From positions 1 to 39,361 of the forward strand of contig LDOQ01000135.1 of assembly GCA_001887945.1 (NCBI GenBank): DNA of 39,361 nucleotides. Direction: 5' to 3'. The translations under genes were made by a program, and so were the position numbers. Position 1 is the first letter of the stretch, and each line of letters starts with the position of its first letter. Positions 2,727 to 39,116 of this stretch are shown here, piece by piece. The DNA comes from Spraguea lophii. Lineage: Eukaryota; Microsporidia; Spragueidae. Below the pieces are notes generated by a model that was not told the DNA's origin, made no database searches, and was given only the letters and a program-made list of their open reading frames with translations.

Positions 2727-3065
2727 ATGTTAATACCTTTAAACTTATCAAATAAATTGGGTTCTATTTTTCAAATTCATAAAGAAAAATTCATTTTAAA
2801 AAAAGAATTAATTCTCATACAAACATATGGAATAAAGAAAAAAGATAGTTATACATGTACAGATATTAAAGAGCTTAAAGAACTTTTATGGGAACTTTCA
2901 ACACATAATATATATAAAAGAATTGTTATAGATAGTATATCTACACTTAATATAGAAAATAATATTATTCTGTTATTTAGATTATTAAAAATAAAAGGTG
3001 TAGATATTGTATTAGTATGTTTTGAGCACGAGAAATTATGGTATGTAGATAAGATATTGGGATAA
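2727..3065 (+). CDS. Small protein with RecA-like Walker B strand, 112 aa
   Basis: The start ATG is immediately preceded by ACCCT, which supports a real gene despite its size. The sequence ends in a pattern seen in RecA/Rad51/KaiC-type domains: an amphipathic helix (ELKELLWELSTHN), a hydrophobic strand ending in Asp-Ser (KRIVIDSIS, about residues 84-92), a helix, and another strand (VDIVLVCFE). No Walker A P-loop is present and the protein is far shorter than a full RecA domain of about 230 residues. It could be a reduced Rad51-paralogue or Elongator Elp4/5/6-type subunit, which also lack P-loops, but this is inference. Upstream DNA shows no coding continuation, so it does not look like the simple 3' half of a broken gene. 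Confidence 0.6.
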   Translation: MLIPLNLSNKLGSIFQIHKEKFILKKELILIQTYGIKKKDSYTCTDIKELKELLWELSTHNIYKRIVIDSISTLNIENNIILLFRLLKIKGVDIVLVCFEHEKLWYVDKILG

Positions 3066-3783
3066 TTCATTAATATGTATAAAGGTCATTCAGATAAACC
3101 ATTATATATGGATCTTTTATTTTTTTCTTAAAAAAAGAATAGTTATTAAAAATATTTTATTTTGAAATTTATTGGTTTCATTGTAAAATTATTATAAATT
3201 ATATTTTTGTAGGTTTTCATTAATAAATAATCCAATTAAAATTAGAAGTATGAAATATTTACAATTTAAAAGTTTCTTATATTCCATAGTATATGGTAAA
3301 TGAATTTAATATATATATAACTAGCACATTTGATATACGTTTAATAAATAATAGAAATAACCTAACCTCGATCATGATAAATTGTGATTTGTCTGATAAT
3401 TTCGTTAATATAACTTTTAATTATAAATATTTTCAAAATAATTATATCCAGGTATATGCAATGGCTTTTAATTCCTATAGTATTTGAATTATTCTTGTTG
3501 GATGTTAAATTGTATATATTAATTTTATTTTACGTTATATTCCAGGAAATTAGGGTGTTGTATAAGGAATATTTTTTTATATTCAATTTTTACAGAATTT
3601 CCAATCTTCGATATAACATAATAATGAAAAGCTATTAGCTAATATAGAATCTTTCATAAGATGATCGTATATTTCTATTCTAATAATAATATCATATACA
3701 AGCATGTAATATAACGTTATTTTTATTTTGTTAGGTTATTATTCAAGATAATCAAATTTTACTCATCAATAACTTTAAAAGCT
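3066..3783. other. Intergenic, no recognisable gene
   Basis: About 700 bp of A+T-rich sequence. Open frames at 3293-3487 and 3456-3638 lack the start motif and have compositional protein sequence only, so I do not call them. Confidence 0.45.
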
Positions 3784-3797
3784 AACAATCTAAATAA
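3784..3797. repeat. Target-site duplication, left
   Basis: AACAATCTAAATAA, repeated exactly at 4284-4297 on the other side of the SINE. A 14-bp direct duplication is what LINE-type target-primed reverse transcription leaves. Confidence 0.9.
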
Positions 3798-4283
3798 GTC
3801 CCGCCTGGCCCAGTGGTCGTGGGGTGGTAACCAAACCCAAGCCTGGCGGGTTCGAATCCCTCATCCAGAAAAATTTTCAAAACAAAAAAAAAATAATAAA
3901 TGTAGAAGAGAAGAAAAAGGTTGTTGAGTGGGTGAGGTTTCGATAGTGCAGCATAGCTGTGCCTTGTATGACGGCCCCGCTACTAGATTAAAGTAGTGTT
4001 TAGCTGATGTAGTTGCAATCCCTGTATTGATTAGTGACTCGGCCAATACTATGCAACGAAAGAGGCTGGGAATTCCTTAAGAGCTGGAAGTGGGGGCGGC
4101 GACGCGCACCAGACGCAAAATCCTAACACTCTGGAGCATAAGGTAAGATGAGATTAATGCATATCTGTAGCGAAACCAGTTAGTACAAGTTTAATTTCGC
4201 TCGAGGAACCGAAGGTCACAGACCATGGTAGGCCGCAACCGGCCAGGAAGCTTTGATAAATAAAAGTTTCATTCGTAAAAAAA
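3798..4283 (+). mobile_element. Intact tRNA-derived SINE
   Basis: A 486-bp element with far higher GC than its surroundings. The head (3798 to about 3868) carries a tRNA-type RNA polymerase III internal promoter: an A-box-like TGGCCCAGTGGTCG and a B box GGGTTCGAATCCC. The ends of the head do not pair as a tRNA acceptor stem, so this is a tRNA-derived head rather than a working tRNA gene. An A-rich linker follows, then a GC-rich body of about 370 bp (about 3910-4258), then AATAAAAGTTTCATTCGT and a terminal A run. Exact 14-bp target-site duplications flank it, showing retroposition. It has no protein-coding capacity, so an outside reverse transcriptase is needed. Three eroded minus-strand copies lie at about 10571-10984, 34125-34510 and 38704-39116. 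Confidence 0.9.
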
Positions 4284-4297
4284 AACAATCTAAATAA
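4284..4297. repeat. Target-site duplication, right
   Basis: AACAATCTAAATAA, identical to 3784-3797 and directly after the SINE A-tail. Confidence 0.9.
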
Positions 4298-5033
4298 AAT
4301 ATTAAATTTATAAAATAATACGAAAAACTATTTTAATATGAGGATTCTCATAAAACATATTATTACTATTAAAATCAATTAATAAAAAATGAGTGTACTA
4401 AGCTTATTTTATAAACTATAACTCGCATTAAATATAATTATAATATTTTCTGATTATAACTTTTTAATCTTAATAATCTTATTGTTCTAAAACATTTAAT
4501 TTATAAAAACCTAGATACAATAATTTATATTATAAAATATATTTATTCTAAGATATGTAATAGTTGATTTAATTACTTTCAGTTTGTATTAGAAATATAT
4601 ATTTTTAAAATTTATATAATATAATATCTTTTTATTAAAAGCCTCTTAAATTATGAATGAAAAATATCAATCCAACGATTACAACATTTATCAATGATTT
4701 ATTTTATTAATTTTTTAGAGTAATTATCAACAGATGTTTAAAATAATTATATATTAAAAAAATAAGCATGTGTTATAACCTATAATATTTATAATAACCT
4801 TCTCATTATATTTTTATTTAATATTATTTTTATGTATGTTTTGTTTATTTGTAAGATTTGTTTGTTTAATTAATTTATTGATATGATATTTTCTGTTTGG
4901 TATAAATTTTTTTTAAAATCTTATTTTATAAATAAAACATAAGAAAAAATATTATTATATCGTTTATATTTTTTTATGATATTGTAAATATTTATTATTT
5001 TGATTTTATTAACAAATATTTAATTAATGTTTC
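4298..5033. other. Intergenic upstream of the SLC19-type transporter
   Basis: About 735 bp of A+T-rich DNA with no recognisable gene. The stretch before the transporter ATG lacks a CCC motif. Confidence 0.45.
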
Positions 5034-10239: not shown

Positions 10240-10550
10240 AAAAGGAGTGTAAATGTATTTGGTTAAAGGTAAGGTTAAAGGAGATTGTATATTATTTAAT
10301 ACAAATATATGGTTAAATGTGAAATAAAGGAGGTGTTTTTATTAAATAATATATCATTTGATAAAAAATATTTGGTTAGAGGGAATAATATATTGTTTAA
10401 TAAAAATTATTTTATTGGTTTTTTGTTTTTATAAGAGATTGATTATTTAATTAAAAATAATAATTTCAGGAGGTGATATTTTTATTAAATGATAGATTGT
10501 TTAATAAAAATATGTTTTACGTAATTATTTTTATTAATAAAATTTTTATT
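10240..10550. repeat. Degenerate repeats upstream of the hypothetical gene
   Basis: G-rich units containing AGGAGGTG followed by TTTTTATTAAAT occur at about 10330 and 10470, and TTTGGTTA-type words recur in between. On the coding strand of the minus-strand gene this is a C-rich, G-poor leader. Confidence 0.45.
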
Positions 10551-10570
10551 TATTGAAGTTTCTTGGTTAA

Positions 10571-10984
10571 TTGTTGTATATTATAATCTTTGGTTCCTAA
10601 AATACATCTAAACTTATATTAACTAGTTTTGCTACATGTATGTATTAATCTCTTTATACTCATGATTTTTAGGATATTAAATATGGTGTAATAATCATTT
10701 TATCCTCCTTAATCAAATTTTGATTTCTTTTCTGGTATAGCATTGGCCGAGTAATAAATCAATATAGAGATTGTAACCACATCTGCTAAGCATTATTTTA
10801 CTCTAGAGATGGTGTTATCATATGAAGCATATATAAAGTTACACTATCATATCTCCATCCAATCAACAACTTTTCTCTTCTATCTTTTATTTTTTTTTCT
10901 CTGAAAATTTTTTCTGTCCAAAGGATTCGAACACATTAGGATTGGAATTTGGTTGCCACTCCCCAACCACTGAATCAAACGGAC
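10571..10984 (-). mobile_element. Eroded SINE copy
   Basis: Minus-strand, AT-eroded relative of the intact SINE at 3798-4283. The tRNA-like head at about 10984-10914 keeps TTCAGTGGTTGGGGAGTGGCAACC and a B box GTGTTCGAATCC; the A-rich linker, GATGTGGTTACAATCTC-type body and TTAGTATAAGTTTA-type 3' part follow in the same order. No target-site duplication is evident. The small open frames inside it are not genes. Confidence 0.85.
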
Positions 10985-34124: not shown

Positions 34125-34510
34125 TTTGATTCCTAAAGCAATTTAAATTGTATTAATTGGTTTCACTATATATGCATTGATACCTTTTTACCTTATGTTC
34201 TAAAATATTAGGATTCTGAGTATGGTATACGTTTCTCTATCTAAACTTCTTAAAGTCTCCTTATTCTTTCTTGGCATAACACTACCCAAGTCACAAATCA
34301 ATACAGAGATTGTAACTACATCAGCTAAACATTATTTTAATCTAGTAATGAATCATTGTAAAAGGTATAATCAATGTTATATTAACGAACACTCAATTAA
34401 CTTTCTCTTATACCTTTTATTATTTTTTGAAAATTCTTTAGGATAAAGGACTCGAACCCGGTAGATTAGAAATTTAGTTAACATTTCATTACCACTCAGC
34501 TAAACAGATT
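34125..34510 (-). mobile_element. Eroded SINE copy
   Basis: Minus-strand relative of the SINE at 3798-4283. It keeps ACCTTATG, GAGATTGTAACTACATCAGC, TTTTAATCTAGTAATG and a B box whose complement reads GGACTCGAACCCGG, in the same order. The open frame 34222-34446 lies wholly inside it and is not a gene. Confidence 0.85.
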
Positions 34511-36366: not shown

Positions 36367-37052
36367 AAGGGTATAATCGATAATAAAATGATAATAAGAT
36401 ATAATAGGATATAATATAATAGATAATAGGATATAATAGATAATTATTATTTTAATATCATAATATTATTTTATTATCAGTATTAATATAATATTGTATA
36501 TCATTTTATATTTTTTAATATTCTAAGTTATATTTTATTCTAGAATTTATATTATTATTATAATTATAACAATTATTTTATATGATATCAGTATAAGTTA
36601 ATATAATATTCTTATATTACTTTTTATCGTTGTTTTATTATCATTATTTTACTATATCACTTTTTTATTATCACCAAGTATAATATAGTATAACATTCCT
36701 TATATCATTATTTTACTATATCACTTACTATCACTCAGTATCTTTTAATATAACATTCTTTATATCACTTATTATCTTTTAATATAACATTCTTTATATC
36801 ATTTACTATCACTTACTATCACTTAGTATATAACATTGTGTATCACTATAACGAATATAGTGGATATTATTTATTTCTTCTGTTACATTTTAATATTTAT
36901 ATGTTATTTCTCTTATTAGGCTTTTGATTCTTCCAATCAATATTATTTAATCTTTATTATATCATGTATGCATCAATAGATCTTGTTTCTTGTTATATCT
37001 GATATATGTTTTAGATTTGTTTGCTATAAATATTTTTTTTGTAACAAATATT
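36367..37052. other. Divergent intergenic region with tandem repeats
   Basis: About 690 bp between the Asn-rich gene and the Ste12-like gene. Near 36375-36445 it has AGATAATAGGATATAATA repeats; at 36739 and 36773 it has two exact copies of TATCTTTTAATATAACATTC (34-bp period), and TATCACTTACTATCACTTA repeats follow to 36835. No gene. Confidence 0.65.
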
Positions 37053-38477
37053 ATGAATTTGCAATATGATAAAGAGCTTTTTAATTTTCTTACCTGTGCT
37101 CCGAAGGAGTTTCGTGGTGGTGAAAAAATAAAAAAGCTTCAATTGAAAAATGGTGATTATGTGCACTGTGTATTATGGAATATGCATTTTTATATGACTG
37201 GTACCGATATTGTGAAAATTCTTGTGTATAGGTTTCAGCAATCTAATAGAGTTATCTCATCGTTGAAGAAGTTTGAAGAAGGAATATTTAGTGATCTAAG
37301 AAATCTAAAACCTGGAATAGATGCGACGTTGGAAGGTCCGCGTTCAGGATTTTTGGAATTTTTATATAAAAATGGATGTATTAGAACACAAAAAAAACAG
37401 AAAGTATTTTTTTGGTATTCTGTGCCGCATGATGCATTGTTTTGTGATGCGTTGGAAAGAGATTTGCGAAGAGAAACAAATATTTATACGTATTCTAAAT
37501 ATTTGAATAATATTAATAAGAATGGTTTGGCGTATAAAAATAAAAAGATGAGTAAGAGAGAAAATGGACATATTATAGGATTGGCAGCAGATAATAGTGA
37601 TGGTGGTAGTTTTATAGGTGCTGAAGGTGTGTATAAATATAATTTTGAGGGATTGGAAAATGGGTATTATAATGGAAATAACGTTAATATGAATATGATA
37701 CAGTATGTGGATAATGAAATAAATAGAGGTAATTATAAAAATAAAAATAATATGAATAGCACTTTGAATTTGAATAATAATTTAAATAATATACAGAATT
37801 TGAATAATAATTTAAATAACCCGCTGAATAACCCACTAAACAACACATTAAATTTAAACAATACACTAAATTATAATGATACATTAAATTATAACGATAC
37901 ATTAAATTACAATGATGCAATGAGAAATTACAATGACAATAAAATCAATCCATTAGACAATACATTGAATATTACAGATAATAATAAAATAAATACATTG
38001 CATGCTACAGATAATAATACACTGAACAATAAATTAAATTATACTGATAACACATTAAATTATACTGATAAAAACAATAACCGACTTTCTTATCTCGATG
38101 ACAATATTAATAGAATTAAATTGAGTAAAGAATCTATAAATCCTGTTTTATCGGAAAATGCCAGTAGAAGTCATTTAAGTAGTATTAGTGCTATACTTGG
38201 TAAAAATTATAATAAAGAAGAAGATAGAATAGAAGAACATAGTAAAGAGAAAGAATGTATTGATGAAAGTAATAATCCGAAAAAAGAGGAAGAGGCAAAA
38301 TATCGTAGTGAGCCTACATTTGTTAGATATCCTAATATGGATTTTAGTGATTGGGATGATAGATATTTTACTCCGCCTAAGGAACAAAGTTATCAAATGC
38401 CCGATATTTTTCAAAATGATGAAGATGAGACAAAAGATAAAGTTATTCCTAATAAACAATCTAGTCATCAGAAATAA
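37053..38477 (+). CDS. STE12: Ste12-type transcription factor
   Basis: A 474-residue protein. Residues about 11-140 are a well-preserved STE domain: LKNGDYVHCVLWNMHFYMTGTDIVKILVYRF, LKKFEEGIFSDLRNLKPGIDATLE, GFLEFLYKNGCIRTQKKQKVFFWYSVPHDALFCDALERDL. In fungi Ste12 is the target of the mating/invasive-growth MAP kinase pathway and binds TGAAACA-like sites. No C2H2 fingers follow. Instead there is a long Asn-rich tract (about 225-355) with tandem LNYNDT units, then an acidic C-terminal third with EPTFVRYPNMDFSDWDDRYFTPP. I take the ATG at 37053 since 5' extension needs a TTG and adds a hydrophobic segment unlike Ste12 starts. No CCC motif. Confidence 0.93.
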   Translation: MNLQYDKELFNFLTCAPKEFRGGEKIKKLQLKNGDYVHCVLWNMHFYMTGTDIVKILVYRFQQSNRVISSLKKFEEGIFSDLRNLKPGIDATLEGPRSGFLEFLYKNGCIRTQKKQKVFFWYSVPHDALFCDALERDLRRETNIYTYSKYLNNINKNGLAYKNKKMSKRENGHIIGLAADNSDGGSFIGAEGVYKYNFEGLENGYYNGNNVNMNMIQYVDNEINRGNYKNKNNMNSTLNLNNNLNNIQNLNNNLNNPLNNPLNNTLNLNNTLNYNDTLNYNDTLNYNDAMRNYNDNKINPLDNTLNITDNNKINTLHATDNNTLNNKLNYTDNTLNYTDKNNNRLSYLDDNINRIKLSKESINPVLSENASRSHLSSISAILGKNYNKEEDRIEEHSKEKECIDESNNPKKEEEAKYRSEPTFVRYPNMDFSDWDDRYFTPPKEQSYQMPDIFQNDEDETKDKVIPNKQSSHQK

Positions 38478-38703: not shown

Positions 38704-39116
38704 GTTGCAATTTATTGGGGTCTATGACCTTTGGTTCCTAACACATATTTAAACTTATACTAACTAGGCTCGCTAAAGATATGTATTGGTCTCATCTTAC
38801 GTTATGCTTTAGAACGTTAATATTCTAAGTATAATGTACGTTTCTGTCACAACTTTTTAGAGATTCATAATTTTTTTCTCGGCATAATACTGGCCAAGTC
38901 ATTAATCAAAACAGGGATTGTAACTACATCAGCTAAACATTGTTTTAATCTAATAATGAGCCATTGTATAAAATATAATATTACTTATAAAATCCACATC
39001 CACTCAACTAACTTTCTATTTTATCTTTTATTGTTTTTGACTATTCTTCAGGGTGAAAGATTTGAATTCGTTAGATTTAAGATTTATTTATTATTTAACG
39101 ACACTCAGATAAGTAC
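38704..39116 (-). mobile_element. Eroded SINE copy
   Basis: Minus-strand relative of the SINE at 3798-4283 and the eroded copy with the best 3' coverage: TTGCAATTTATTGGGGTCTA (38706) corresponds to the region just before the intact tail. CTCGGCATAATACTGGCCAAG, CAGGGATTGTAACTACATCA and TTTTAATCTAATAATGAG follow. The tRNA-like head near 39060-39116 is the most decayed part. Confidence 0.85.

Follow-up and report, generated by a model that had tools for sequence, protein, structure and literature searches.

A recently inserted SINE with a LINE-like tail in a microsporidian genome and old family copies behind tRNA genes

Results

Structure of the element in the window

The DNA analysed here, referred to as the window, is a stretch of 39,361 nucleotides that forms contig C38 in an assembly of 73 contigs and 5.27 Mb. 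An earlier note, made from the letters of this stretch, had assigned it to a microsporidian-type genome. This agrees with one protein of the assembly: the Sec61-alpha encoded on C2 is, along its whole length, 100% identical to that of Spraguea lophii 42_110 (next match 67%), and the host is therefore either S. lophii itself or very closely related to it. The window contains one full-length young copy of a repeat and three old copies of the same family:

3784-3797, plus strand: left target-site duplication AACAATCTAAATAA, identical to the right repeat
3798-4283, plus strand: full-length young SINE copy of 486 bp (40 scored copies 96-100% identical; family consensus 492 nt)
3798-3869, plus strand: tRNA-like head, as similar to the genome's tRNAs as these are to one another, with no single donor
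3806-3816, plus strand: A-box-like TGGCCCAGTGG, by sequence inspection
3849-3859, plus strand: B-box-like GGTTCGAATCC, by sequence inspection
3870-3925, plus strand: A-rich linker, its length varying between copies
3926-4193, plus strand: GC-rich central body of ~270 nt, without Rfam match, LINE similarity not above shuffles
4194-4248, plus strand: block in common with a LINE 3' UTR (L099:1819-1873), 83.6% over 55 bp, inner 49 bp 85.7%
4250-4283, plus strand: terminal segment and A tail, resembling the LINE's last bases (local score 36, equalled by 1/500 shuffles)
4284-4297, plus strand: right target-site duplication AACAATCTAAATAA, 14 nt, exact match to the left repeat
10528-10983, minus strand: old family copy, ~32% diverged, 27.5% GC
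34128-34502, minus strand: old family copy, ~31% diverged
38718-39074, minus strand: old family copy, ~31% diverged

A Ste12-type, STE-like transcription factor is also encoded in the window (36990-38477; Pfam STE 9.8e-52).

The earlier note had described an intact, recently inserted tRNA-derived SINE with exact 14-bp target-site duplications, A and B boxes, an A-rich linker, a GC-rich body and a terminal A run. The duplications are indeed exact (3784-3797 = 4284-4297), and all of the named parts were located within 3798-4283. Measured against the 40 scored members of the family, the copy has its full length, and it differs from their consensus by 5 substitutions, several of them at subgroup-shared sites, which bears out the words "intact" and "recently inserted". 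Its GC content is, as had been noted, far above that of its surroundings: it reaches 45.5%, where the whole window has 22.5% and the flanking 500-bp intervals (3001-3500, 4501-5000) have 13-19%. The consensus is short and non-coding: its longest stop-to-stop frame comprises 94 aa and had no match at E ≤ 1 in a protein search, which is a weak test for the element among predicted proteins of other organisms. A search of a plasmid collection likewise gave no match.

The motifs TGGCCCAGTGG and GGTTCGAATCC resemble the A- and B-box consensus, respectively; the small-RNA-like head thus carries predicted internal pol III boxes. ARAGORN called no tRNA in the window, Rfam gave no match at gathering level, and a permissive Rfam scan yielded a 13-nt T-arm-like match and nothing else. 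Compared with 21 of the genome's tRNAs, 45-50 of the ~72 head positions are common to several tRNAs, and the best head-tRNA scores (14.0-14.5) are similar to the mean of 12.4 between different tRNAs, with no single donor standing out among the 21. The predicted minimum-energy fold of the head is not a cloverleaf. The head is tRNA-like, yet no recognisable tRNA. Consequently, the earlier label has to be divided: "SINE" holds, given the boxes, linker, A tail, duplications, dispersal and lack of a protein match, whereas "tRNA-derived" is only partly borne out, because no donor tRNA is prominent.

Copy number and dispersal of the family

A DNA search of the genome against itself gave 445 first-look candidates, of which the best 40 are 96-100% identical over (nearly) their full length. 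Allowing up to 3 mismatches, a 41-nt body probe matched 118 sites, 49 of them forward and 69 reverse; for a 27-nt core probe there were 233 sites (109 forward, 124 reverse). Reversed-pattern control probes for both had no matches. The element is therefore present in many dispersed copies, and 118 copies of ~490 bp would amount, by arithmetic, to ~1.1% of the assembly. The earlier note had named a single-copy match, or a conserved non-coding RNA gene at the same locus in related species, as findings that would speak against a SINE. Neither applies: the genome holds many copies, and their positions at many unrelated places exclude an RNA gene conserved at a single locus.

Of the 100 listed SINE sites, five are found no more than 155 bases from a contig start, and four of these share the offset 85. 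The contigs concerned start within a SINE copy (C3, C19, C35 and C46 at offset 85, C36 at offset 114), and the repeat therefore seems to break the assembly. The copy counts are probably underestimates.

Insertion marks

Target-site duplications reaching the set score were found in 33/40 copies, compared with 9/1560 mismatched pairs of upstream and downstream flanks. They lie beside the simple tail and vary in length, with 12 (2 copies), 13 (7), 14 (15), 15 (7), 17 (1) and 20 bp (1, extending into the A tail). The base preceding the duplication is T in 22/33 copies, and its first base is A in 18/33. Seven of the 40 copies fell below the threshold, including one (L019) with a 13-bp repeat containing one mismatch; in the other six no duplication was persuasive, and the 450 bases upstream held no exact repeat. 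An empty site was also found: one copy on C44 lies inside a repeat whose paralogue on C48 lacks the insertion and holds a single copy of the target sequence. Together, the duplication test and the many genomic copies with the same two ends place the window element far beyond chance.

Age series and GC decay

Each of the 40 copies carries 2-9 substitutions relative to the majority consensus (492 nt, 46% GC), many of them at subgroup-shared positions. Twelve further pieces could be aligned that are 10-36% diverged from the consensus, among them the three old copies of the window. Along this series the GC content drops from 46% to 27%: it is 43% at ~10-11% divergence, 39.5% at 12-19% and 27-33% at 23-36%, and in 12/12 diverged pieces changes from GC to AT are more numerous than the reverse. 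The argument of the earlier note that the window copy has not had time to equilibrate with the local AT pressure is thus matched by an age series within the same genome. The declining GC content and the near-identical copies together indicate that the family is a long-time resident that was recently active.

Search for a partner LINE

The earlier note had postulated a partner LINE elsewhere, and a candidate with a 3' region common to the SINE was found in the genome. A profile search with RVT_1 marked nine places, namely LTR-type elements (by inspection), a telomerase, degenerate pieces and the start of C72. The latter carries a 458-aa LINE frame with 43% GC that is cut by the contig start, with an upstream endonuclease part in a different frame. 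The 458-aa frame matched no Pfam family at 1e-3; its match to a metagenome protein of 728 aa that carries endonuclease domains covers 99% at 31% identity. It is also related to Smittium reverse transcriptases, and the matching Smittium culicis proteins bear the name Transposon TX1. On C21, C-terminal pieces of the LINE end in a 3' UTR that holds the SINE-like 55 bp (L099:1819-1873, 83.6%), to which a weaker terminal block is added. The ~100 LINE bases that separate both blocks are missing from the SINE. In the one LINE 3' UTR that was aligned closely, the SINE tail is 84-86% alike, and on this alignment the SINE appears to share its 3' end with a LINE of the same genome. Such an arrangement is usual in SINEs that borrow the tail of a LINE.

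A probe from the LINE 3' UTR located five LINE ends in the genome (C21, C6, C8, C61, C11), and old degenerate relatives of the LINE are present as well; none of the LINE pieces examined is complete. The start of C21 (L099:1-3409) is a cluster of LINE pieces including two C-terminal parts, a 68-bp piece that matches the C72 LINE at 98.5%, and a long stretch that matches the region upstream on C72 at 86-96%. An origin of the SINE body from the LINE was rejected at this sensitivity because the local scores (49, 42) were below the best of 20 shuffles (53.5, 47.5).

Other reverse transcriptase matches were dismissed as partners. The one on C2 is a telomerase with RNA-binding domain (L059:2222-5896, minus strand, 1224 aa, Telomerase_RBD 1.4e-15), which contains long Asn-rich stretches. 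Those on C73 and C44 have integrase-, protease- or gag-like frames next to them and were read by inspection as Ty3/gypsy-type LTR elements; Ty3/gypsy-like elements with reverse transcriptase, integrase- and gag-like frames are seen in L055 and L056.

Old family copies behind tRNA genes

Rfam annotated 57 tRNA genes in the genome, and the downstream flanks of 50 of these were read (30 loci with long flanks and 20 others). At 6/50, an old SINE copy on the same strand lies close behind the terminator T run, separated from it by a few to ~ten bases. The genes are those for tRNA-Lys (C47), tRNA-Asn (C40), tRNA-Ala (C45), tRNA-Leu (C43) and one each on C33 and C56; a decayed tRNA-Lys pseudogene on C29 is a seventh case.

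L064, L069, L077, L092, L067 (about 1668-1730), L115 and L121, same strand as the tRNA: tRNA-linked old SINE copies

The linked SINEs on C33 and C56 are 5'-truncated, starting at about position 321 (C33) and 270 (C56) of the family profile. One of the linked tRNA genes spans 117 nt and looks intron-bearing. Within the 30 long-flank loci, 4/12 SINE hits are on the same strand 9-24 nt behind the tRNA, for which random placement gives P = 3e-7 with a 30-nt window that was chosen after seeing the data. Among the 100 listed young copies none lies directly behind a tRNA, and there is no enrichment near tRNA genes: 2 are found within 500 nt (1.08 expected), 3 within 1000 nt (2.16 expected) and 5 within 3000 nt (6.49 expected). 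Lys, Asn, Ala and Leu each also have SINE-free tRNA copies among the 30 loci.

The flanks of the case on C56 bear on the origin of the link. Its tRNA has a partner on C4 of equal length and score with a nearly identical trailer. On the upstream side TACAAAACTTCTT stops 7 nt short of the tRNA, and TACAGAACTTCTT stands behind the SINE tail; this bracketing duplication scores 10.5, compared with 3.0 for the trailer between tRNA and SINE, and 4/5000 random genomic 29-mers match equally well. The duplication flanks tRNA and SINE jointly, which argues that both were co-copied at C56 rather than that the SINE was inserted behind the tRNA. For tRNA-Leu (C43), where 47/1000 random 29-mers were equally good, a duplication around tRNA and SINE is suggestive. 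No bracketing duplication was seen for Ala, Asn, Lys and pseudo-Lys; for tRNA-Asn, whose linked SINE is just 10-12% diverged, there is no duplication between tRNA and SINE either. The linker of this Asn-linked SINE is split by an insert of 1.3 kb (L069:about 1683-2990) that has GGGTTTCCCG/CGGGAAACCC at its ends and carries a transposase-like frame; by inspection it resembles Tc1/mariner.

Upstream of the tRNA genes, TATAT or TATAA occurs at -40 to -18 in 1/5 linked compared with 22/26 unlinked tRNAs (post hoc Fisher test 0.0098, or 0.031 without C56, which has a short upstream stretch). Two other forms of the motif did not separate linked from unlinked genes (0.55 and 1.0). In the 45 nt upstream of the tRNA loci L063-L092, CAA stands directly before the tRNA in 8/26 unlinked genes.

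Discussion

Nature of the element and alternative explanations

We conclude that the block is almost certainly a recently inserted copy of a SINE, a non-autonomous retrotransposon, of Spraguea lophii or a near relative. The family, its ends, the duplications, the empty site, the shared 3' region and the age series are established from the sequence. From these we infer transcription by pol III, mobilisation by the resident LINE and present-day activity. RNA polymerase III would transcribe the SINE from its internal A and B boxes, and the reverse transcriptase of the resident LINE would recognise its tail via the same 3' sequence. The LINE endonuclease would nick AT-rich DNA, weakly preferring T|A, and the A tail would prime target-primed reverse transcription; the resulting duplications would mostly measure 12-17 bp.

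Three other explanations were considered for the block. Selection on a non-coding RNA, either a conserved gene or a dispersed family of functional RNAs, would account for the very high identity of the young copies, the tRNA-like promoter boxes and the strong folding predicted for the consensus (a raw value). It is very improbable in view of the spread over many contigs and both strands, the continuous decay series, the unfilled site on C48 and the lack of a gathering-level Rfam match, and the target-site duplications in 33/40 copies refute it as the sole explanation; exaptation of individual SINE copies is possible. A non-autonomous DNA transposon (MITE) or a Helitron derivative might be thought of, since DNA transposons are abundant (PMC4202319) and MITEs present (PMC4405373) in microsporidia. 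However, the element has neither the terminal inverted repeats (first against reverse-complemented last 40 bases, score 4) nor the fixed short duplications of a MITE; instead, the duplications vary in length and adjoin an A tail, and the 3' end is common to a LINE, so that we give this reading hardly any credence. The high GC content (46% in the SINE, 22.5% in the region) could also reflect a recent horizontal arrival from the fish host or another animal, and other transposons have been exchanged between microsporidia and metazoans (PMC4202319). This is unlikely: copies at 10-36% divergence with a parallel drop in GC speak for long residence, and the LINE with the shared tail is itself resident, with 43% GC and old degenerate relatives. 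An arrival in the distant past is conceivable.

Origin of the tRNA link

With regard to the old copies behind tRNA genes, we see an even chance that they are co-retroposed chimeras of pre-tRNA and SINE, amounting to a SINE-assisted birth of tRNA genes. The linked copies have the orientation of the tRNA, and the junction lies close to its 3' oligo-U. While a SINE or LINE is being reverse-transcribed, the enzyme might leave the SINE RNA, either at the 5' end or internally, and continue on the 3' oligo-U of an unprocessed pre-tRNA; alternatively, pre-tRNA and SINE RNA might first be ligated. In either case, the joint tRNA-SINE cDNA would then be inserted and, since a tRNA brings its own promoter, the retrocopy would be a tRNA gene from the outset, with the SINE as its tail. 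If true, about one in eight tRNA genes (6/50), including the one with the 117-nt span, would be of chimeric origin, and the pseudo-tRNA-Lys with its SINE tail would be an example of a decayed chimera. The deviating trailers of the Lys and Asn cases and the absence of either kind of duplication in the Asn case speak against chimeras.

The SINE may instead have been inserted preferentially just behind existing tRNA genes, a somewhat doubtful though quite conceivable reading. In Dictyostelium, tRNA-targeting elements insert behind tRNA genes. The narrow start range of all four same-strand hits within 30 nt (9-24 nt downstream, 30 loci) fits such targeting, and so do the trailers of the linked tRNA-Lys and tRNA-Asn, which are unlike those of the unlinked copies. 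It is at odds with the duplication on C56, which lies outside tRNA and SINE and not between them (10.5 against 3.0), with the absence of young copies just behind a tRNA (0/100 listed) and, post hoc, with the tendency of linked tRNAs to lack the upstream TATA-like motif (1/5 against 22/26).

Significance

SINEs are hardly described in microsporidia, a lineage known for genome reduction, and the present one could be worked out together with its putative partner LINE, an age series and signs of recent activity. Spraguea lophii keeps Dicer and Argonaute (PMC3749934), and a live SINE would therefore be a concrete target for RNAi questions. In addition, the SINE copies offer natural markers for studies of strains and populations, and the tRNA chimeras, if real, would represent a route for the multiplication and movement of tRNA genes in a small genome.

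Comparison with known systems

SINEs with a tRNA-derived head and a LINE-derived 3' tail are a general class. A statement of this class is also given in PMC7245038. The present element resembles it in its head with A and B boxes, body, LINE-shared 3' part, A-rich tail, duplications and a LINE in the same genome; unlike the class, it has no recognisable tRNA donor, a 270-nt GC-rich body and a microsporidian host with a 5-Mb genome.

Among the papers listed in full-text searches of the open-access literature, none describes a microsporidian SINE family. The S. lophii genome paper reports four non-LTR retrotransposon transcripts from the unassembled part (PMC3749934), and a survey of microsporidian transposons counts one LINE family in S. 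lophii (PMC4202319). These non-LTR elements come from the same species as the SINE, and the word SINE does not occur in the main texts of either paper. The repeat table of Nosema bombycis contains a SINE class of 28,669 bp, or 0.18% (PMC3614468). Like our element it belongs to a microsporidian genome, with the class assigned automatically there; it differs in being a table line, where no family, sequence, duplications or partner LINE is described.

For the tRNA link, the closest comparison is with the human U6/LINE-1 and tRNA/LINE-1 chimeras, in which U6 is joined in sense and 21 tRNA loci are mostly half-length and antisense (PMC13174262). Both systems have a pol III RNA at the 5' end of a retroposed element, in the human chimeras within one duplication pair and here clearly so at C56; in contrast to the human tRNA/LINE-1 chimeras, the tRNAs here are full-length, in sense and with a trailer, and the partner is a SINE. 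Overall, the SINE is ordinary in kind and its host unusual, and the link to tRNA genes is the surprising part.
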